A stretch of DNA of 64,000 nt from Frigoribacterium sp. PhB24 (GTDB taxonomy: Bacteria > Actinomycetota > Actinomycetes > Actinomycetales > Microbacteriaceae): contig NZ_RKIC01000012.1 in the NCBI RefSeq assembly GCF_003755185.1, positions 62,001 through 126,000 of the forward strand. Direction: 5' to 3'. This document shows, in pieces, positions 29,500 through 39,937 of this stretch (the first letter of the stretch is position 1; each line of letters starts with the position of its first letter). The notes beneath the pieces were generated by a model, which worked only from the letters and a program-made list of their open reading frames with translations, searched no databases and had not been told where the DNA came from. The translations under genes and the position numbers were made by a program.

Positions 29500-30540
29500 G
29501 TGCGCACCCTGACCACCGGCACCGCCGCCCTGCTGCTCGCCGCCTCGCTCACGGTCACGCTGACCTCGTGCTCGGCCGACGGCAACAATCCGACGGTCGC
29601 CCCGCAGGCGAAGATCCCCGCCGGGCTCGCCGTCGAGGGGTACGCCATCGCCTCGCCCGACGCGACGTCGGCGGCCGTCGAAGCCTTCGACCGCAGCGAG
29701 GCGGCGATCGACACCGTCGGCGTCTCGGGTGTCGCGATCACGACCGGAGGGGGCGGCGTCGCCCCGAGCGACGAGTCCGCCAACTCCCTGCGCGAGGCCG
29801 CGCAGTCGGCCGGCAAGAAGGCCGAGCTGCTCGTCGTCAACGCCGGGCAGGACGGGTTCAGCAGTGAGCTCGCGACCCGGCTGCTGTCGAACCGGGCCAA
29901 CCGCGAGCTCGTCGTGTCGGGTCTCACCGGCGAGGTGGTCAACGGCGGCTGGGACGGCGTGCAGATCGACTTCGAGTCGCTCTCGGCCGAGGACGCCCCG
30001 GGGCTGGTCGACTTCGCCGCCGAGCTGCGCGACGCCCTGCCCGACGACGCCACGATCTCGATGGCCGTCCAGCCCAGCACCGACGCGGCGGGGTACGAAG
30101 ACCTCGGTTACGACCTGGCCGCCCTGTCCGACTCCGTCGACCGCTTCGTGCTCATGGCCTACGACCAGCACGGCACCGGCTTCAGCGAGCCCGGGCCCGT
30201 CGGGGGCCTGCCCTGGGTCGGCGAGGTACTCGACGCGGCGCTCGAGCTCGCCCCCGCCGACCGCCTCGACCTCGGCGTGGCGGGGTACGGCTACCGCTGG
30301 ACGGGCGAGGGGACCGCAGGAGGTGCGGTGTCGGTCGCCGAGGCCCGCACCGGGGCGCGGTCCACGGGTTCATGGGACGCCGAGCAGGCCGAGTACACGG
30401 CGTCGCCCGACGACGGATCGACCCTCTGGTGGTCGGACGGTCGCTCCATCACGGCCCGAGCCGACCTGGCCGCGTCGAAGGGCCTGCACGGGGTCGCCAT
30501 CTGGCAGCTGACGACGGGCGACCCGATCCGCCGCGGCTGA
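29500..30540 (+). CDS. GH18-like glycoside hydrolase lipoprotein
   Basis: 346 residues. GTG 29500 starts a signal peptide ending in the lipobox LTSC (Cys near 25). The TIM-barrel shows the GH18 active-site pattern as WDGVQIDFES (D-x-x-D-x-E near residue 155) and VLMAYDQHGTG. A conserved aromatic GYGYRW and the final WQLTTGDP also fit spore-germination/YaaH-type GH18 proteins. Probable target is peptidoglycan or chitin-like N-acetylglucosamine polymers outside the membrane. The first D of the full DxxDxDxE is replaced, so confirm activity. A perfect 22-bp palindrome lies 82 bp after the stop. Confidence 0.82.
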   Translation: MRTLTTGTAALLLAASLTVTLTSCSADGNNPTVAPQAKIPAGLAVEGYAIASPDATSAAVEAFDRSEAAIDTVGVSGVAITTGGGGVAPSDESANSLREAAQSAGKKAELLVVNAGQDGFSSELATRLLSNRANRELVVSGLTGEVVNGGWDGVQIDFESLSAEDAPGLVDFAAELRDALPDDATISMAVQPSTDAAGYEDLGYDLAALSDSVDRFVLMAYDQHGTGFSEPGPVGGLPWVGEVLDAALELAPADRLDLGVAGYGYRWTGEGTAGGAVSVAEARTGARSTGSWDAEQAEYTASPDDGSTLWWSDGRSITARADLAASKGLHGVAIWQLTTGDPIRRG

Positions 30541-31967: not shown

Positions 31968-32858
31968 GTGACCTCCTCCACCGCACCCCGCCTCGGTCTG
32001 CTGCTCGACGTCGACGGCCCGATCGCCAGCCCCGTGACCCGCAGCATCGCGCTGCCCGAGATCACCCGTGACCTCGTCGCGCTCGCCGCGCTCGGCATCC
32101 CGATCGTGTTCAACACCGGACGGTCGGACGCCTTCATCCGCGACGAGGTCGTCCGCCCGCTGCTCGCGGCCGGACTGCCCGCGGGGTCACGCGTGCACGG
32201 CGTCTGCGAGAAGGGAGCCGTCTGGTTCACGATCGGCCCCGAGCACGGCCCCGACGGCATCGGCCCGATCGAGGTCGACTCGTCGCTCGCCATGCCCGCC
32301 GACTTCGGCGCCGAGATGCAGGCGCTCGTCGCCGACGAGTTCTCCGACCTGGTCTTCTACGACACGACCAAGCACGCCATGGTCTCGATCGAGCAGCTCA
32401 CCAGCGTCGAGTCGTCGACCTACCTCGCCCGGCAACGCGACCTCGACGAGAAGGCGATGCAGGCGCTGGTCCGCCGTGGGTTCGGCGTGCGCCGTCTCGA
32501 CGACGTCCGGCCCGACGCGTCCGGCGACGTGCAGTGGCGCGTCGACCCGACGATCATCTCGACCGACATCGAGTCGGTCCGGCTCGGTAAAGACCTGGGT
32601 GCCGAGCGGGCTCTCGAGCTGCTCGCCGCCGACGGCGAGCCCCCGCTCGCCTGGCGCACGGTCGGCGACTCGCGGAGCGACTACGCCATGGCCGACTGGC
32701 TGCACGCGCAGGGCCACCCGGTCGCCCACGTCGACGTCCGGCCCGCCGACGGCGTCCCCGCGACGCCGTACCCGGTCCTGACGAGTGCCGCGGGCGCGAT
32801 CCACGACGAGGCCGGCGCCGAGTTCCTCGCCGGATGGCTGGCCGACCTGACCGCCTGA
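31968..32858 (+). CDS. HAD-family hydrolase
   Basis: 296 residues. Motif I LLLDVDGPI (nucleophile D near residue 14), motif II IVFNTGRSD, and motif IV GDSRSDYAM near residue 230 are present, with a Lys (LGKDLG) before it. The cap inserted between motifs II and III resembles Cof/trehalose-phosphatase-like HADs acting on sugar phosphates. GTG 31968 is the start, with GAGGAT at the leaderless spacing (-12 to -7). No operon partner: the beta-glucan locus begins 412 bp downstream. Confidence 0.82.
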   Translation: MTSSTAPRLGLLLDVDGPIASPVTRSIALPEITRDLVALAALGIPIVFNTGRSDAFIRDEVVRPLLAAGLPAGSRVHGVCEKGAVWFTIGPEHGPDGIGPIEVDSSLAMPADFGAEMQALVADEFSDLVFYDTTKHAMVSIEQLTSVESSTYLARQRDLDEKAMQALVRRGFGVRRLDDVRPDASGDVQWRVDPTIISTDIESVRLGKDLGAERALELLAADGEPPLAWRTVGDSRSDYAMADWLHAQGHPVAHVDVRPADGVPATPYPVLTSAAGAIHDEAGAEFLAGWLADLTA

Positions 32859-33270
32859 GCCGGGGACACGCCCGACGTGCCCCCCCGGACGGGGTGAGAC
32901 GGGTGAGCGTCAGCCCCCAACGGGTGTCACCTGCCCGCTGTCCAGGCGGGCTGTGACCCTTTCGAGGGGGCCTACCCCCCGAACGGGTGTCGTCGAACGG
33001 CCCGAACGGCCCTGTACTGTTTCGACACGTCCCCGGTACGGTCCCCCGAAAGGCCCACACCGGAGACCAGCCCGTCGATCGAGTGGCCCGAACCATTCGC
33101 AGTCGACGGACCCGAATCGGGAGTCCCTAGCTCCCACCCGGCCACCGCTCACCCCGGTGCGTCACCTCGAAGTCGCCGCTGTCGCCGACGCCCCTCCGGA
33201 CGTCCGTCGGCACTTCCCCCCGCCGCCGGCGTCCGGTCGTCTCTCAGACCCGAACCCGGAGAGAACACGC
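32859..33270. other. 412-bp gap with terminator, promoter-like sites and long leader of the glucan locus
   Basis: Holds a hairpin (32926-32957), several ACGGGTG repeats (for example CAACGGGTGTC and GAACGGGTGTC), GGGGG-CCTA-CCCCC, and two -10-like hexamers: TACTGT at 33015-33020 and TACGGT at 33036-33041. If either is used, the synthase message has a leader of 220-245 nt. I could not match this leader to a known riboswitch; the GEMM c-di-GMP core was not seen. Confidence 0.5.
32926..32957. terminator. Hairpin after HAD gene
   Basis: GTCAC, then CCCGC with a 7-nt loop, GCGGG, and GTGAC: a stem with a small internal loop, 68 bp after the HAD stop. No U-tract. Confidence 0.45.
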
Positions 33271-35304
33271 ATGTCCCGAACCATGCGCGTCCGCGACAGC
33301 GACGCCGAAACCCGACCCGACACCGGACCCGCCCTCGACGTGGCACCTCGCTCGCGCAGCGAACTGAGGCGCCTGGCACACCACGACGAGGCGCGCCGGC
33401 CGCGCGCACGCCCCTCGACCCGCCAGACGAGCGACCACCACGCGTCGGTCGTCTCGCGCACCGAGGGGCGTGCCCACTCGCCGTTCATGGTGTTGCTGGT
33501 GCTCGCCTGCACCATGGGCATCCTGCTCTACGGCCAGTTCCTGTTGAACCCCGCCAACCGCGGTGACCTGCTGCCCTACGTCGCGGTGATCATCGCCGAG
33601 GCCGTCCTGGTACTGCAGGCCCTGCTGGCCATGTGGACGATCCTCTCGGGCGGCCAGAACCCCCGCGACTTCGACTTCCACTCGACGCAGGACACCCTGT
33701 ACGACGAGGACGCCATCGACCGGCTCGGCGTGCGCGACCAGCCGCACCTGTGGCCGATCGTCGTCGACGGGAAGACCGTGGTCGTGGACGTCTTCGTCAC
33801 GGTCTACGGCGAGGAGCTGTCGAAGATCGCGATGACGGTCCAGGCCGCCGTCGCGATGCAGGGCGCCCACCGCACCTGGGTGCTGGACGACGGTCGCAGC
33901 GACGAGGTCAAGGAGCTCGCCGCGACGCTCGGTGCCCGGTACATCCGCCGACTGACCAGCAACGGCGCCAAGGCGGGCAACGTCAACTACGCGCTGTCGG
34001 TGGCCAAGGGCGACTACTTCGCCATCTTCGACGCGGACTTCGTGCCCAAGCCGATGTTCCTGCACGAGACCGTGCCGTTCTTCATCGACGAGAAGGTCGC
34101 CTTCGTCCAGACCCCGCAGTCGTACGGCAACCTCGTCAGCATCGTCAGCCGCGGCGCCGGCTACATGCAGGCCGTCTTCTACCGGTACATCCAGCCCGGT
34201 CGCAACCGGTTCAACGCCGCGTTCTGCGTGGGCACCAACGTGATCTTCCGCCGCGCGGCGATCGACGAGGTCGGCGGCATCGACACCGACTCGAAGTCCG
34301 AGGACGTCTGGACGAGCCTGTTCCTGCACGAGGCCGGCTGGCGGTCGATCTACATCCCGATGACGCTCGCGATCGGCGACGCCCCCGAGACCATCGAGGC
34401 GTACAGCAAGCAGCAGTTGCGCTGGGCGACCGGCGGCTTCGAGATCCTCTTCCGGCACAACCCGTTGAGTCCTCGCCGCACCCTGACGATGGACCAGCGC
34501 TTCCAGTACACGCTGACGGCGACCCACTACCTGACCGGCATCGCCCCGTTGCTGCTGATCATGGTGCCGCCGATGGAGATCTTCTTCGACCTGCGTCCGA
34601 TGAACCTGCACATCTCGGTGCTCCAGTGGCTGCTCTTCTACTCGGGCTTCTACCTGCTGCAGATCGCGCTGGCGTTCTTCACCCTCGGATCGTTCCGCTG
34701 GGAGGTGCTCATGCTCGCCTCCGTCTCGTTCCCGATCTACGTCAAGGCCCTCTGGAACGTCCTGAGCGGCAAGGACACCGCGTGGCACGTGACCGGCGGC
34801 GGCAAGGCGGCGAGTCCGTTCAACGTGCTCGTCCCCCAGGTGCTGTTCTGGCTCTTCCTGACGCTCACCTCCCTCGTGGCGATCTGGCGCGACTGGGACA
34901 ACCGCGTGCTCACCCTCGCCACGGTCTGGAACCTCATCAACACCGCCGTGCTGTCCGCGTTCCTGCTGGCGGCCCTGCGTGAGGCCAAGGCGATCAAGCG
35001 TGCCTCCCGTTCGGGCTCGAGCGCCCGCACGACGATGGCCGGCACCGTGACGACCGGTCCCGTCGCCACCCAGGAGCTGCGGACCCAGGTCGCCCGCCCC
35101 CTGCCCCGGAGCCACGACGAGTTCCTCGAGCTCTCGGCGGAGCAGCGTGCCGAGCAACGGCGCCGCGACGACGAACGGCGTCACCTGCTCGAAGCCGAGC
35201 TGGCGGTGGTCGACGACCGCCACGCCGACCAGACGGGCCACGACGACCCGGCCACCCGACCCGACCGACACGACACGAACGACCGAGAGAAGGTGGTCTC
35301 ATGA
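33271..35304 (+). CDS. Processive family 2 glycosyltransferase, beta-glucan/cellulose synthase-like
   Basis: 677 residues. Cytoplasmic N-terminus (1-70), two helices (about 73-120), the GT-A domain, then about five helices (430-580) and a charged 100-residue tail. The processive D,D,D,QxxRW set is complete: LDDGR at 206-207, FDAD at 254-256, EDVW at 344-345 and QQLRW at 381-385. It should polymerise a beta-glycan from a UDP-sugar and extrude it across the membrane. No PilZ domain is visible. ATG 33271 has GGAGAG 8 nt upstream. The stop overlaps the HlyD-like gene (ATGA). The GH81 glucanase downstream favours beta-1,3 or mixed-linkage glucan over cellulose. Confidence 0.87.
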   Translation: MSRTMRVRDSDAETRPDTGPALDVAPRSRSELRRLAHHDEARRPRARPSTRQTSDHHASVVSRTEGRAHSPFMVLLVLACTMGILLYGQFLLNPANRGDLLPYVAVIIAEAVLVLQALLAMWTILSGGQNPRDFDFHSTQDTLYDEDAIDRLGVRDQPHLWPIVVDGKTVVVDVFVTVYGEELSKIAMTVQAAVAMQGAHRTWVLDDGRSDEVKELAATLGARYIRRLTSNGAKAGNVNYALSVAKGDYFAIFDADFVPKPMFLHETVPFFIDEKVAFVQTPQSYGNLVSIVSRGAGYMQAVFYRYIQPGRNRFNAAFCVGTNVIFRRAAIDEVGGIDTDSKSEDVWTSLFLHEAGWRSIYIPMTLAIGDAPETIEAYSKQQLRWATGGFEILFRHNPLSPRRTLTMDQRFQYTLTATHYLTGIAPLLLIMVPPMEIFFDLRPMNLHISVLQWLLFYSGFYLLQIALAFFTLGSFRWEVLMLASVSFPIYVKALWNVLSGKDTAWHVTGGGKAASPFNVLVPQVLFWLFLTLTSLVAIWRDWDNRVLTLATVWNLINTAVLSAFLLAALREAKAIKRASRSGSSARTTMAGTVTTGPVATQELRTQVARPLPRSHDEFLELSAEQRAEQRRRDDERRHLLEAELAVVDDRHADQTGHDDPATRPDRHDTNDREKVVS

Positions 35305-36032
35305 CCTGGGGAAACAGGATCAAGATGACCGTGGGCATCCTCGTGGTGATCGCCCTCGTGGCCGTCTTCACCGTGATCTTCACACAGCGGCAGGCACAGG
35401 TCATCAGCACCAGCGCCGCCATCGCGAGCCAGGACTTCACGGTCGGCACGGACTACAGCGGCACGGTGACGTCCGCCGACGCCGAGGTCGGCGACCGGGT
35501 CTCGAAGGGCGACGTCCTCTTCTCGCTGCAGAGCCCTTCGTTGCAGAAGGACCTCGCGGACGACGTGGTCGTCCCCGACACGGACGCCTACACGGTGGCC
35601 GACGACGGCACGATCACCTTCATGGCCACCGTCGACGGCACGCTCTCGCAGCTCGACGTCCGTGAGGGCGGGTTCTTGGGGTCGGGCACGACCGTCGCGA
35701 CCATCGAGAAGGCCGGCACGCTCTTCGTGGACGCCGACTTCACGCTCACCCCCCGCGACTACGAGCGCATCCAGGACGGCGCGACCGTCGACGTCATGCT
35801 GCCGAACCAGGTGGTCGTCGAGGGCAGCGTCGACCTGGTCAGCGTCGAGACCAAGGACGGCGCGGCCGCGGCCACCGTCCGCGTCGTCAGCGACGGGCTG
35901 AGCGAGGGGTCGTACAACGGTCTCGTCGCGAGCGGCACGCCGGTCGAGGCGACCATGCACCTCCGTGACGACGGCATCCTCGCCGGGCCGGTCGACACCA
36001 TGCAGGACTTCCTGCGCCAGATCGGGGTCTGA
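35301..36032 (+). CDS. HlyD/BgsB-like membrane-fusion partner of the synthase
   Basis: 243 residues: one N-terminal helix (about 8-30), then a biotinyl-lipoyl-like part split by VPDTDAYTVADDGTITFMATVDGTL (in pieces) and a beta-barrel with the VDVMLPNQVVVEGSV strand. HlyD-type folds normally bridge exporters, but rhizobial mixed-linkage glucan synthase BgsA also needs an HlyD-like partner, BgsB. Translational overlap with the GT2 gene argues for a similar synthase complex here. In a monoderm organism it would work in the wall, not in an outer membrane. No matching ABC or RND exporter gene lies nearby. Confidence 0.82.
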   Translation: MTWGNRIKMTVGILVVIALVAVFTVIFTQRQAQVISTSAAIASQDFTVGTDYSGTVTSADAEVGDRVSKGDVLFSLQSPSLQKDLADDVVVPDTDAYTVADDGTITFMATVDGTLSQLDVREGGFLGSGTTVATIEKAGTLFVDADFTLTPRDYERIQDGATVDVMLPNQVVVEGSVDLVSVETKDGAAAATVRVVSDGLSEGSYNGLVASGTPVEATMHLRDDGILAGPVDTMQDFLRQIGV

Positions 36033-36124
36033 CGATCCTCGGTGCAGCGAGAGAGACGACGGGTCGGCTCGACCGACGGGATCGTTCGGGATCACCGATC
36101 GGTTCCGGGTCGGCCCGTCACCCC

Positions 36125-36166
36125 CAGGAGGCGCGGGTCGAGGCCCGACCCGCCCCGCGCCTCCTG
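36125..36166. repeat. Inverted pair of dispersed motif before GH81 gene
   Basis: CAGGAGGCGCGGG (36125-36137) and its reverse complement (36154-36166), 16-nt loop. It lies in the short gap before the glucanase gene and covers the best candidate upstream start codon, so it might affect translation as well as transcription. Confidence 0.65.
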
Positions 36167-36190
36167 ACCCTCCGGCGCCTCGTCGCCGGC

Positions 36191-38239
36191 GTGGCCCTCG
36201 GCACGGCCGGCGTGCTCGTGCTGGCCGGCTGCACCGGCGGCTCGGCCACGGACGGCGACGGGGACACCACGGGTCGCCCCGACGCCGGGGGCGACGTGTT
36301 CCCGGCCTCGCAGGTCGACCCGCTGGTCGCCGCCCTGCCTCAGGAGTCGGTCGGCCCCGTGCCGGCGATGCGCCTCGCCGACGGGCTCGTCCCGCCGACG
36401 AACACCTGGTTCTCGGGGCTCGTCTTCGGTGACGAGCCGATGCCGGTCTTCCCGTTCCCGATCTCGTTCCAGCTGACCGCCGACGGTCTCGCCGCGGGGC
36501 TCCCCGCGCCGGTGGCCTCCGAGAAGGCCGTCGTCGCCCCCGCGCGGTCGGACGTGACCCTCGACGTCGGCGCGACGGCCACCGAGGTCAGCGCCTACGA
36601 CAAGGTCTCGGTGACCGTCGCCCACCTCGACGGCGGCACGGTGCTCGGCCACACGACCGTCGCCGAAGGGTCGCCTCTCGTGTCGTACACGGCCGCGACC
36701 GCGCAGACCGACACCCTCGGGGCCGCCGTGCAGACCGTCGGCGACGGCCGGGGCACGCTCACCGTCGGCGACACCACCTGGGGCGTCGCCGTCACGGGCG
36801 GGAGCCTCGACGGTACGGCCGTCCGGCTCGACGAGGGCGGCTCGGTCGTGCTCGTGCCGATGCCCGACCAGGCGACCGGCGACCAGGTGCGGACGCTGCT
36901 CGACGCGGCCGCCTCGCCGCTGGTGTCGGTGACCACCGCGCACCGCGCCTCCGGGTCCGGTTCGACGGCCGTGTCGACCACCGAGCTCGGGTACGAGACG
37001 GCCGCCGGGGGAGACACCCTGCTCGTGTCGGCACCCCACATGGGCGACTCGGCCGCCGACGGCGGCACCGGGCTGAGCTACGAGACCGTCTACGGCACCG
37101 TGCCCCTGTCGACCGGTTCGGCCTTGTCGTTCGACGCGCCCGTCACGACGGCCTCCGCGGCCCTCGACCTCTCGGGTCTGAGCGACGACGAGAAGGATCG
37201 GCTCGGCGACCAGGTCGTCGCCGACGTCGCCGCGACCGAGGCGCCCGCGGCCGACACCTACTTCGGCGGCAAGGCGCTCTACCGTTCGGCCATGCTGCTG
37301 CAGCTCGCCGAGCAGCTCGGCGACGACGCGTCGGCCGACACCCTGCGCGCCTCCCTCGTCGACCGGCTCGACACCTGGACCGACCCCTCGGGTTGCACGG
37401 TGCGCGACCAGGAGTGCTTCGTGTACGACCCCGCCGTGAAGGGCGTCGTCGGCAAGGTGGCCTCGTTCGGTTCGGACGAGTTCAACGACCACTACTTCCA
37501 CTACGGCTACTTCCTCTACGCCGCCGGCGTGGTCGCCGCCGACGACCCCGAGCTGGCCGAACGTTGGCGACCGGTCATGGACCTGCTCGCCGCCGACATC
37601 GCCTCGGGTGCCGACAACCAGGCGTTCCCCGACCAGCGGGCGTTCGACCCGTACTGGTCGCACAGCTGGGCCTCGGGCTACTCGCCGTTCGCCGACGGCA
37701 ACAACCAGGAGTCCTCGTCCGAGGCGGTCAACGCCTACGCCGGCCTGTCGCTCTGGGCAGCGGCCTCGGGCGACGACGCGCTGGCCGGCCAGGCCTCGTG
37801 GATGCTGAGCAGCGAGGCGTCGTCGGCCCTCGCGTACATGCTGTCGCCCGACCTGAGCGCCCCGCAGCTCGCCGGGTACGACCACGAGATCGTGTCGCTG
37901 ACCTGGGGCGGCAAGCGCGACTACGGCACCTGGTTCTCGGCCGAGCCGTCGGCCATCGCGGGCATCCAGCTGATCCCGCTCAACCCGACCTCGGTCTCGT
38001 ACCTGACGTCGTCGGCGGCGGGCGGTGCCGAGCGCATCGCTGCCGTCGTCGCCGAGGCGAGCGCGTCCGGCTTCGACACGCCCCTGGGCGACTACGTGCT
38101 GATGTACTCGGCGTTGCAGGGCCCCGACGCCGCCGCCGAGGCCCTGACGGCGCTCGCCGACCTGCCCGAGACGGGCATCGACGACGGCAACTCGCGGGCC
38201 TACGCGATGGCGTACGTCATGAGCGCCGGGGCGCGGTAG
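36191..38239 (+). CDS. GH81 endo-beta-1,3-glucanase lipoprotein
   Basis: About 682 residues. GH81 blocks are plain: FNDHYFHYGYFLYAAG, GNNQESSSEAVNAYAGL with the catalytic Glu region, and GGKRDYGTWFS. Lipobox VLAGC anchors it outside the cell, where it would trim or release beta-1,3-glucan. The start is uncertain: GTG 36191 gives a signal peptide without positive charge. The codons just upstream encode LLTLRRLVAG, an ideal n-region, but contain no ATG, GTG or TTG, only CTG (36164). Either CTG is used or the sequence has an indel. One dispersed-motif copy reads as HRASGSGS near residue 253. Confidence 0.9.
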   Translation: MALGTAGVLVLAGCTGGSATDGDGDTTGRPDAGGDVFPASQVDPLVAALPQESVGPVPAMRLADGLVPPTNTWFSGLVFGDEPMPVFPFPISFQLTADGLAAGLPAPVASEKAVVAPARSDVTLDVGATATEVSAYDKVSVTVAHLDGGTVLGHTTVAEGSPLVSYTAATAQTDTLGAAVQTVGDGRGTLTVGDTTWGVAVTGGSLDGTAVRLDEGGSVVLVPMPDQATGDQVRTLLDAAASPLVSVTTAHRASGSGSTAVSTTELGYETAAGGDTLLVSAPHMGDSAADGGTGLSYETVYGTVPLSTGSALSFDAPVTTASAALDLSGLSDDEKDRLGDQVVADVAATEAPAADTYFGGKALYRSAMLLQLAEQLGDDASADTLRASLVDRLDTWTDPSGCTVRDQECFVYDPAVKGVVGKVASFGSDEFNDHYFHYGYFLYAAGVVAADDPELAERWRPVMDLLAADIASGADNQAFPDQRAFDPYWSHSWASGYSPFADGNNQESSSEAVNAYAGLSLWAAASGDDALAGQASWMLSSEASSALAYMLSPDLSAPQLAGYDHEIVSLTWGGKRDYGTWFSAEPSAIAGIQLIPLNPTSVSYLTSSAAGGAERIAAVVAEASASGFDTPLGDYVLMYSALQGPDAAAEALTALADLPETGIDDGNSRAYAMAYVMSAGAR

Positions 38240-38296: not shown

Positions 38297-39937
38297 TCAG
38301 CCGACGACGCGCACCCGGTCGACCAGACGCTGCACGCTGCCGTCGGGGCGGTTCGCCACGAGCGCGCCGCCCCAGAAGCCGAGCTGGTCGCGCTCGGCGT
38401 CGAGCCGCCAGAGGCGGTGGCCGTCGGCCAGGTCGAAGGCGGTGACCGTCGACGTGCGGCCGCTCGAGGTGGTCGTGGCGTAGCCGGTGGTGCGGCCGAC
38501 GAGCGCGATCTCCGACTCACCCGGCACCACGGCCCGGGCCACCTCGTCACCGGACCCCGCGTCGAGCAGGCGGACGGTGCGCTCGCCCGCCTCGTCCGAC
38601 GTGAGGGCGCCCGAGGCCGCCGCCGCGCCTCCTGGTTCGAAGGTCTGGGCGAAGACGAGCGCCCCCCGGCCGCCGGCGGGGTCGGTGGTGACCCGTGCCA
38701 GGCCGTGGCGGCGGTCGCGGGGCGGGGTGGTCCAGAGCTCGGCTCCCGTGCGGCGGTCGACGCAGACCACCCCGGGCGTCGTCGAGAAGACGACGCAGTC
38801 GCCGGTCGTCTGCACGCCGCGGTCCTGGCGGAAGCCGTGCCGCCAGAGCTCGCGTCCGTCGAGCGAGAGAGCGACGACGGTGCCGTCGGTGTCACCCGTC
38901 GAGGTCGGGATCGCCGGGTCGAGACCGACCATGACGAGGTCGCCGTCGACGACGAGTGACGTGGCGGTCGGCAGGTCGGGCCCCCAGGCGCCGGTCTCGC
39001 CCGTGCGCCCGTCGACCGCGGTGACGACACCGCCGTCGAGGACGAGCAGGCCGTCGGGGGTCAGGGCCTCGTCCTGGCTGCCGGTGGTGTCGCCCGTCCA
39101 CACGGGGGTGTCGAGGTCGTCGGCGTCGAAGAGCGAGAACTCACCCGTCCCGGGTTCGGAGTCGTAGTAGACCCGCGAGTCCTGGTACGAGAACTGGGGG
39201 TCGCTCGAGACGAGGGCCCAGGAGGCGGTGGCGTCGGTCAGTCGGGCGCGCCCGTTCGGCGAGGTGGTCACGTCGGTCAGCTCGCCGGTGCCGAGGTCGA
39301 GGCGGGCGTACGACGAGGCGAAACCGTCGCCGCCGAAGCCCAGCGTCGAGACGAGGGTCGTGTCGGTGGCCCCGTCGGCGGGCCAGACCTGCACGAATCC
39401 GCTGCCGGCGTCGAGCTCGGTGCCCAGGTCGATCCACCAGCGGACGGTGCCGGTGACGGGGTCGACGCGTGCGAGCCGGCTGACGGTCTGGGCGGTGCTG
39501 CCGAAGCCGCCGTCGAAGCGGCAGTCGGTGTCGACGTCGGTGGCCGAGCTCGTGCCGGTGTCGTCGTCGCCCTCGGCCCCGCTGGCGCTGACGAGGACGT
39601 CGCCGCCGAGCCGGTCGGGGCCCACCGCGGGCTCGGCCTGCCAGAGCAGGCAGCGACCCCGATCCGCCGGCACGCCGACGTCGGCGGGCGTGAGCGTCCA
39701 CGAGTCGGGGACGGGCTCGTGCCGCAGGTCGTCGCCGACGACACCGTCGAGGGTGGCGGCGGACGAGTAGCGCGGGGCCTCGACCAGGCCGACGGTGGTG
39801 ACGAGCGCCGCGGCGACGACGACCGCGGCGATCACGAGCGTGAGGCGGCGAGGGCCGGAGGTGCGGTGCCAGACGGCGAGTCCGCTGCGGCGGGCGCGCG
39901 CGAGCGGCTGGTCGCTCGGTCGGGCGTCGTCCGTCAC
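38297..39937 (-). CDS. Membrane-anchored PQQ-like beta-propeller protein (paralogue 1)
   Basis: 546 residues. One membrane helix (about 31-53) after an Arg-rich cytoplasmic stub, then repeated blades such as LARVDPVTGTVRWWIDLG, VVALSLDGRELWRHGF and CVDRRTGAELWTTPP, typical of PQQ-like (BamB/quinoprotein) propellers without the PQQ site being certain. Paralogous to 46558-48360; both end with an LGFWG.ALVA / IGFWGPHLVV block. Likely an extracytoplasmic binding or scaffold protein. GTG 39937 is fixed by TAGCAT at leaderless spacing. Role unknown. Confidence 0.78.
   Translation of the reverse strand: MTDDARPSDQPLARARRSGLAVWHRTSGPRRLTLVIAAVVVAAALVTTVGLVEAPRYSSAATLDGVVGDDLRHEPVPDSWTLTPADVGVPADRGRCLLWQAEPAVGPDRLGGDVLVSASGAEGDDDTGTSSATDVDTDCRFDGGFGSTAQTVSRLARVDPVTGTVRWWIDLGTELDAGSGFVQVWPADGATDTTLVSTLGFGGDGFASSYARLDLGTGELTDVTTSPNGRARLTDATASWALVSSDPQFSYQDSRVYYDSEPGTGEFSLFDADDLDTPVWTGDTTGSQDEALTPDGLLVLDGGVVTAVDGRTGETGAWGPDLPTATSLVVDGDLVMVGLDPAIPTSTGDTDGTVVALSLDGRELWRHGFRQDRGVQTTGDCVVFSTTPGVVCVDRRTGAELWTTPPRDRRHGLARVTTDPAGGRGALVFAQTFEPGGAAAASGALTSDEAGERTVRLLDAGSGDEVARAVVPGESEIALVGRTTGYATTTSSGRTSTVTAFDLADGHRLWRLDAERDQLGFWGGALVANRPDGSVQRLVDRVRVVG

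Follow-up and report, generated by a model that had tools for sequence, protein, structure and literature searches.

The DNA analysed here is a 64,000-nucleotide stretch of Frigoribacterium sp. PhB24 (contig NZ_RKIC01000012.1, positions 62,001 to 126,000, hereafter the window), in which three genes follow each other on the plus strand: a processive GT2 synthase, an HlyD-like membrane-fusion protein and a predicted GH81 lipoprotein (Table 1). A previous sequence-only reading had described these genes in one orientation, with an ATGA overlap between the first two, and all of this was confirmed. We show that the three genes form one conserved unit, below called the cassette. Counts for named loci refer to the best 80 of 529 confirmed loci.

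Genes and junctions of the locus

The GT2 synthase has the superfamily motifs D, D, D, QxxRW, KAG and QxPH/Q, with the catalytic residues D206/D207, D254/D256, E344-D345 and Q381QLRW385. The motifs DD (206-207), DAD (254-256), SED (343-345) and QQLRW were invariant in a 12-row alignment, and in wider GT2 sets the third letter of QQLRW is also found as Q. Hydrophobic helices flank the catalytic domain on both sides, and a Pfam scan of the protein found no PilZ domain. A sequence search among solved structures led to BcsA (E 1e-49). This was further supported by an AF2 model (pLDDT 74, pTM 0.68) showing a BcsA-like fold with membrane helices, for which the top Foldseek matches were BcsA (1.7e-28) and then CesA and CslF6, with hyaluronan synthases ranked lower.

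The HlyD-like protein scores above the cut-off of both PF13437 and PF16576. In the structure model a single N-terminal helix (residues 3-31) is combined with beta domains (barrel-sandwich and beta-barrel), and the structural matches were ZneB (5.9e-11), EmrA, MacA, BesA and Spr0693. The model has no long helical hairpin, which is a feature of pump adaptors; as modelled, such a protein would suit a cell lacking an outer membrane.

GH81 is a family of endo-beta-1,3-glucanases. The third gene matches PF17652 with 190 bits (cut-off 25.6) and the structure 6fop with an E value of 7e-60. The N-terminal GH81 model PF03639 gave 11 bits in the window, below its cut-off, as was also the case in Cellulomonas fimi; since it had no match anywhere in the Frigoribacterium genome it was abandoned as a detector and PF17652 was used instead. 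The NDH and GNNQE..E motifs are invariant in 19/19 cassette GH81s, and so are, in all 19 rows, the two glutamates E507 and E511, which we take to be catalytic. Two loci, L073 and L080, were left out of this alignment (the L073 stretch has an in-frame stop).

Two gene starts had to be changed. The position 32859, where the sequence-only reading had made the synthase begin, is the base directly after the upstream stop, and the ATG of the gene lies at 33271. For the GH81, the close relatives examined have GTC or GCC where the window has the GTG at 36191 (the start in the mechanical list of open reading frames), no ATG, GTG or TTG is found in frame upstream of it in the window, and the frame is open from the CTGA at the HlyD-like/GH81 junction, a sequence also present in other listed Frigoribacterium loci. 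The CTG at 36029 is therefore the likely start, which would make the GH81 a coupled gene with a rare start codon. At this junction, the 78 named loci with a GH81 have GTGA in 31, ATGA in 20, CTGA in 13 and TTGA in 2 cases, and the remaining 12 are out of frame or closed. As four-nucleotide overlaps are common at both junctions, the three genes look translationally coupled.

A lipobox, the mark of a lipoprotein, follows a hydrophobic stretch in 50 of the 78 named-locus GH81s. In the cassette enzymes of C. flavigena and C. fimi its place is taken by a hydrophobic segment at the N-terminus.

Table 1. Positions of the three genes and their features in the window
Feature	Position	Strand	Basis or remark
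GT2 processive synthase	33271..35304	+	677 amino acids (aa); ATG start 33271, stop 35304
QQLRW motif, GT2 residues 381-385	34411..34425	+	sequence
ATGA, overlap of GT2 stop and HlyD-like start	35301..35304	+	4-nucleotide overlap in 72/80 named loci
HlyD-like membrane-fusion protein	35301..36032	+	243 aa; Pfam and model
CTGA, overlap of HlyD-like stop and probable GH81 CTG start	36029..36032	+	in-frame open NTGA in 66/78 named loci
GH81 endo-beta-1,3-glucanase (probable start)	36029..38239	+	682 aa if counted from GTG 36191
GH81 lipobox LAGC	36221..36232	+	pattern
GH81 motif GNNQESSSE	37697..37723	+	E507, E511 (682-aa numbering)

Conservation of the three-gene block

Among 40 relatives, 19 had a GT2 match above 700 bits, and the same 19 had the GH81 downstream on the same contig and strand, as judged from the listed coordinates; the GH81 match of G002 is split into three pieces. 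One genome of the window's own genus, G003, has neither GT2 nor GH81. The arrangement was further analysed in 396 genomes of the taxonomic order, drawn from a larger group (the order sample); these genomes are related, and the counts are not independent events. The GT2 was present in 51 of the 396 genomes, all 51 have a GH81, and in 50 of them, belonging to six family codes, the GH81 lies downstream of the GT2 within 6 kb. The gap between the matched stretches was 1.7–2.3 kb in 52 of 54 measured cases. In the exception, G380, the block is divided between contig ends, the GT2 lying at one and the HlyD-like gene with the GH81 at a different one; together with four second copies of duplicated loci this makes five GT2 copies with no GH81 within 6 kb. 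GH81 was found in 10 of the 345 genomes that have no cassette GT2.

All 80 named loci contain the HlyD-like gene, and 78 contain the GH81 in the order GT2-HlyD-GH81; in the other two (L120, L137) the sequence ends first. Another 38 loci were hand-picked among genomes with a GT2 match, and 37 of these have all three genes; in G117 the GT2 is only 40% identical and neither partner gene is present. The carriers are a range of soil and plant actinobacteria, among them Cellulomonas, Cellulosimicrobium, Isoptericola, Oerskovia, Sanguibacter, Actinotalea, Demequina, Curtobacterium, Frigoribacterium, Cryobacterium, Agromyces, Nocardioides and Microlunatus. In a phylum-wide sample of 396 genomes, the sole match above 320 bits was the window's own GT2. 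The GH81 had been proposed by the sequence-only reading as a partner in a beta-glucan synthase locus, and its conserved place beside the GT2 strongly supports this.

Chance or synteny of the whole region was considered as a cause of the gene order and rejected, because five tested neighbours in the window are missing from most of 85 loci (present in 17, 4, 3, 11 and 7, with flanks of 8-10 kb at most) and because the block occurs in tandem duplicate. In L078 (family code f10) the entire block is duplicated, each copy with its GH81, and in L095, L099, L100 and L101 (also f10) as well as in L110 (Cellulomonas-type, genus code g50) two GT2 and two HlyD-like genes are accompanied by one GH81. Such duplications may reflect two polymers or gene dosage. 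In L111 (G457, genus code g50) the GT2 match is in two pieces, possibly by a frameshift, with the HlyD-like gene and the GH81 after it. Four Cellulomonas loci (L117, L118, L119 and L140) have a second, weaker GH81 match (157-163 bits) 1-1.5 kb past the cassette GH81.

The GH81 of the cassette also differs from other GH81s. A tree was made of 25 cassette enzymes and 20 of the 30 GH81 genes in the order sample that are not placed downstream of a GT2. The 25 cassette enzymes and one stand-alone enzyme (G112) formed a clade with support 100/100, and the other 19 of the 20 stand-alones fell apart from it. Eight stand-alone GH81s that were scanned have 978-1178 aa and each continues past the GH81 domain with a long tail, as compared to GH81 domains only in all eight cassette enzymes scanned. 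The term modular for the stand-alone enzymes was softened, as CBM6 was found in only two of the eight. Three loci (L273, L274 and L275) hold a cassette-type GH81 with no match to the GT2 or the HlyD-like gene nearby, possibly a result of synthase loss or a catabolic offshoot.

These results bear on the explanation that the GT2 makes cellulose or another beta-glycan, and that the adjoining GH81 is merely a nutritional or antifungal enzyme. By fold and by sequence, the nearest solved structure to the GT2 is that of BcsA, and PMC12823222 discusses the GH81 of Frigoribacterium alongside enzymes that attack plant and fungal glucans and describes its role as undetermined. However, the tie of GH81 to GT2 in 50 of 51 genomes across six family codes and the separate cassette GH81 clade argue against an unrelated enzyme, and a PF17652 search of the window's genome found no GH81 match besides the cassette one. 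The GT2 in turn lacks a PilZ domain and the residues of two BcsA rows described below (H; N or G; L or N). We consider this explanation very unlikely.

The five tested neighbours of the cassette are not part of the block. Directly upstream lies a HAD-like hydrolase (31968-32858) with a weak NCBIfam HAD-IIB match and no Pfam match, which is present in 17 of the 85 loci, all Microbacteriaceae. A GH18-domain protein (approximately 29500-30540) lies further upstream, and a PQQ_2-domain protein (38297-39937) lies downstream on the other strand; both are outside the conserved block.

Descent and acceptor-site residues of the synthase

The GT2 tree comprised 19 cassette GT2s, one CrdS row, BgsA, two BcsA rows, other GT2s and PgaC as outgroup; L224, the Romboutsia RiGT2 and hyaluronan synthases were left out. 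The reference CrdS is from the crdASC-like cluster on plasmid pAtA6 of Agrobacterium tumefaciens A6 (L217), and it agrees with 15/15 AtumCrdS residues published in PMC6821405. The 19 cassette GT2s formed a single clade (100/100) that lies within the actinobacterial GT2s. A second clade (100/99), with no cassette GT2s, consisted of CrdS, BgsA and related alphaproteobacterial HlyD-linked GT2s, the two BcsA rows paired (97/95), and CrdS, BgsA and BcsA were joined at 80/95 with the cassette GT2s outside. The cassette GT2s thus group with neither the two BcsA rows nor PgaC, and neither with CrdS nor with BgsA; the suggestion of the sequence-only reading that the locus represents a monoderm version of CrdS- or BgsA-type synthesis is not supported as a statement of descent.

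Residues at the channel entrance that separate CrdS from BcsA are listed in PMC6821405. At the positions of CrdS Q237, Q259 and K270 all 19 cassette GT2s have Q, Q and R or K (R at 270 in 17/19), as compared to H, N or G, and L or N in the two BcsA rows. Expressed in R. sphaeroides numbering, the BcsA acceptor residues H276, N298 and L309 are missing in 19/19. In the pattern scan of the gating loop, 14 of the 19 cassette GT2s showed WxVTG at the corresponding position and none showed FxVTxK, whereas all eight reference GT2s have FxVTxK. The cellulose synthase model TIGR03030 gave 237 bits on the window GT2, with a cut-off of 699. The channel residues speak against a BcsA-type site, and they do not decide between beta-1,3 and mixed linkages. 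CrdS-like channel residues were tried as proof of a beta-1,3 product and rejected by a control, since 15/19 other actinobacterial GT2s, of unknown product, share the Q/Q/basic state; BgsA shares it as well. The second GT2 of C. flavigena, included as a further row, has Q/A/K.

The cassette GT2 might instead make a mixed-linkage (1,3;1,4)-beta-glucan, as a monoderm equivalent of BgsBA from S. meliloti or of RiGT2 from Romboutsia, and the GH81 would then trim beta-1,3 blocks. The pairing of HlyD and GT2 resembles BgsBA, the R at position 270 in 17/19 cassette GT2s is the residue of BgsA where CrdS has K, and among the references BgsA had the best pairwise score with the window GT2 (171 bits; CrdS 160 and either BcsA 151). 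However, BgsA clusters with CrdS and not with the cassette, and GH81 cuts runs of beta-1,3 links, which in typical mixed-linkage glucans are isolated, as known for the family. In addition, the polymer reported from C. flavigena is curdlan (PMC3544764), and we regard mixed linkage as an unlikely product. On the use of such names, a gene annotated as 'Curdlan synthase' in Rhizobium leguminosarum CB782 (L221) is 79% identical to S. meliloti BgsA, a mixed-linkage synthase, and the label is likely a misnomer.

Of the known systems, crdASC of Agrobacterium is like the cassette in having a GT2 of the cellulose synthase superfamily adjoining an HlyD-family protein, here in the CrdA position, and in the report of curdlan from the cassette carrier C. 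flavigena. The two differ in that the GT2s lie in separate clades, the gene order is HlyD-GT2-CrdC as compared to GT2-HlyD-GH81, and the CrdA-position protein has 484 aa (published crdA, 1458 bp), as compared to 243 aa in the cassette. It belongs to the HlyD family by PF13437 (24.3 bits, cut-off 22.2). The comparison with rhizobial BgsB made in the sequence-only reading is sustained and applies to the curdlan operon as well. The relationship to CrdA is remote (profile comparison, probability 96.1, E 3.5e-9, 116 columns), and tblastn of CrdC and CrdA gave no matches at E 0.01 in 84 sequences. The bgsBA system of Sinorhizobium and Rhizobium also combines an HlyD-family protein with a GT2 and has Q/Q/R at the three acceptor-site positions, whereas its GT2 is in a different clade, its gene order is reversed and BgsB has 412 aa; no glycosidase is listed alongside in the incomplete gene tables of R. 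etli CFN42 or R. leguminosarum CB782.

In cellulose synthesis, BcsB and BcsZ both take part, the latter by trimming cellulose. The bcsABZ genes, with a synthase, a membrane-anchored partner and a polymer-matched glucanase, may be regarded as an analogue of the cassette, in which the partner is HlyD-like, the glucanase is GH81, PilZ is lacking and the acceptor-site residues are unlike those of the two BcsA rows. RiGT2 of Romboutsia ilealis is, as the cassette GT2, a Gram-positive beta-glucan synthase, with a (1,3;1,4) product (PMC10374906); according to that paper it does not cluster with a bcsB gene, and HlyD and GH81 do not appear in the main text. Taken together, the cassette would work like a synthase–glucanase operon and by descent stands outside crdASC, bgsBA and bcs.

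Curdlan in Cellulomonas and the proposed function

The Cellulomonas genome paper of 2013 (PMC3544764) describes abundant curdlan in C. flavigena and little in C. fimi and others, calls the reuse of curdlan by C. flavigena unclear, and names, for each species, two GT2s that are 35–39% identical to the Agrobacterium curdlan synthase. When CrdS was used as query, the cassette GT2 was the top match in C. flavigena (36%), C. fimi (35%), C. gilvus (36%) and the window's genome (34%), a second GT2 coming next. The ratios between the positions of the two best CrdS matches (1.198, 0.963 and 1.607 in C. flavigena, C. fimi and C. gilvus, respectively) agree within 1% with the ratios of the locus-tag numbers in PMC3544764 (1.206, 0.964 and 1.604), and the cassette GT2 therefore fits, by position, Cfla_3154, Celf_3456 and Celgi_1506. 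It is followed by the HlyD-like gene and the GH81 in C. flavigena, C. fimi and C. gilvus (L081). The cassette is also carried by C. uda (L125), and the biofilms of C. flavigena, C. uda and C. fimi have been termed curdlan-type (PMC8832061).

Cellulomonas curdlan could also be made by the other CrdS-like GT2, at the position of Cfla_2615, and not by the cassette. PMC3544764 names this GT2 as one of its two candidates, and in C. flavigena, C. fimi and C. gilvus it is the second CrdS match, with 39-44% identity over a short stretch. However, in C. flavigena its CrdS score is lower (105 bits, as compared to 155 bits for the cassette GT2), it is closer to TIGR03030 (335 bits, window cassette GT2 237), its catalytic region contains an insertion, its neighbour is a SpoIIE-type phosphatase, and no glucanase was found among three scanned neighbours. 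We find this origin of the curdlan improbable. A second cellulose-synthase-like GT2 of this kind, forming a separate system, lies in the window's genome on contig C10 (L288:10524-13771), where it overlaps the phosphatase gene, and in C. flavigena at L287:7177-11897.

Our results suggest that the GT2, the HlyD-like protein and the GH81 very probably act together in beta-glucan production, and we consider it likely that they constitute one operon whose product is a cell-surface beta-glucan with many beta-1,3 links, of the curdlan type. That the product is mainly beta-1,3 glucan is probable as well; we prefer this to mixed linkage because GH81 is an endo-beta-1,3-glucanase family and C. flavigena is reported to make curdlan. 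Concerning the beta-1,3 bonds that the sequence-only reading had derived from the GH81, the enzyme and the C. flavigena phenotype thus favour them, whereas the linkage residues do not discriminate curdlan from a mixed-linkage glucan. By analogy, the best reading is that the cassette would be the beta-1,3 counterpart of BcsA–BcsB–BcsZ, and a similar division of labour between synthesis, guidance and trimming may be proposed because of this analogy. The GT2, as its BcsA-like fold and motifs suggest, would polymerise glucose from UDP-glucose at the inner face of the membrane and thread the chain through its own channel. The HlyD-like protein, with a one-helix anchor and its beta domains outside, may sit on the synthase and guide the chain across the membrane surface and the wall, as its counterparts CrdA, BgsB and BcsB may also do. 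The GH81, a predicted lipoprotein in most carriers, could cut the emerging chain at the outer face, thereby trimming or releasing the polymer or clearing misplaced product, and may later recycle it.

Several observations weigh against this proposal. By the tree the cassette GT2 is not a CrdS orthologue, the Q/Q/basic state of its acceptor site is shared with BgsA and most other actinobacterial GT2s, and CrdS H374, K382, W422 and H442 are absent in 19/19 cassette GT2s (L/V/I/T/G, G, I/V and L at these positions, in an alignment that is loose around H374-H442 with gaps near 439). The presence of the cassette is patchy: in the Cellulomonas-type genus (that of G371) 53 of 81 genomes have a GT2 match, two of them weak, so that the cassette GT2 is present in about 51 of 81. 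A second GT2 candidate exists in each of C. flavigena, C. fimi and C. gilvus, as does a stand-alone GH81 besides the one in the cassette. In G112, G344 and G196 the fetched stretch with a cassette-like GH81 gave no match to the GT2 or the HlyD-like protein, which speaks against strict dependence. C. gelida (L124) carries the cassette and is reported as a curdlan non-producer (PMC3035266); a precedent for carriage without product is A. fabrum C58, with crdASC present and no quantifiable curdlan in standard culture (PMC10819609). Finally, no lipobox was found in 28 of the 78 named-locus GH81s, and the culture supernatant of C. fimi is reported to contain a GH81 without a typical leader, which of the two not being said (PMC4780727), so that tethering to the surface is unsure there.

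With these points included, we lean slightly towards seeing in the cassette the missing Gram-positive curdlan synthesis locus, in which a GT2 lineage reached beta-1,3-glucan independently of CrdS, with a minimal HlyD partner and a dedicated GH81 editor, and which is spread over several Actinomycetota families, from Cellulomonas to Frigoribacterium, Curtobacterium, Demequina, Nocardioides and Microlunatus. In the open-licence literature, as far as it was accessible, no paper was found that joins the GT2, HlyD and GH81 of the cassette; already in print, separately, are the presence of GT2 and GH81 in Cellulomonas and the Frigoribacterium GH81 of undetermined role (PMC12823222). Of the two candidates for the Cellulomonas curdlan synthase, the cassette points to one, adds two partner genes to it and predicts that a beta-1,3-glucanase belongs to the synthesis. 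It further suggests that the Frigoribacterium GH81 may serve the cell's own polymer. With a compact HlyD-like partner that has no long hairpin, in a cell with no outer membrane, the cassette also offers a simple setting for testing the role of HlyD proteins in beta-glucan export.

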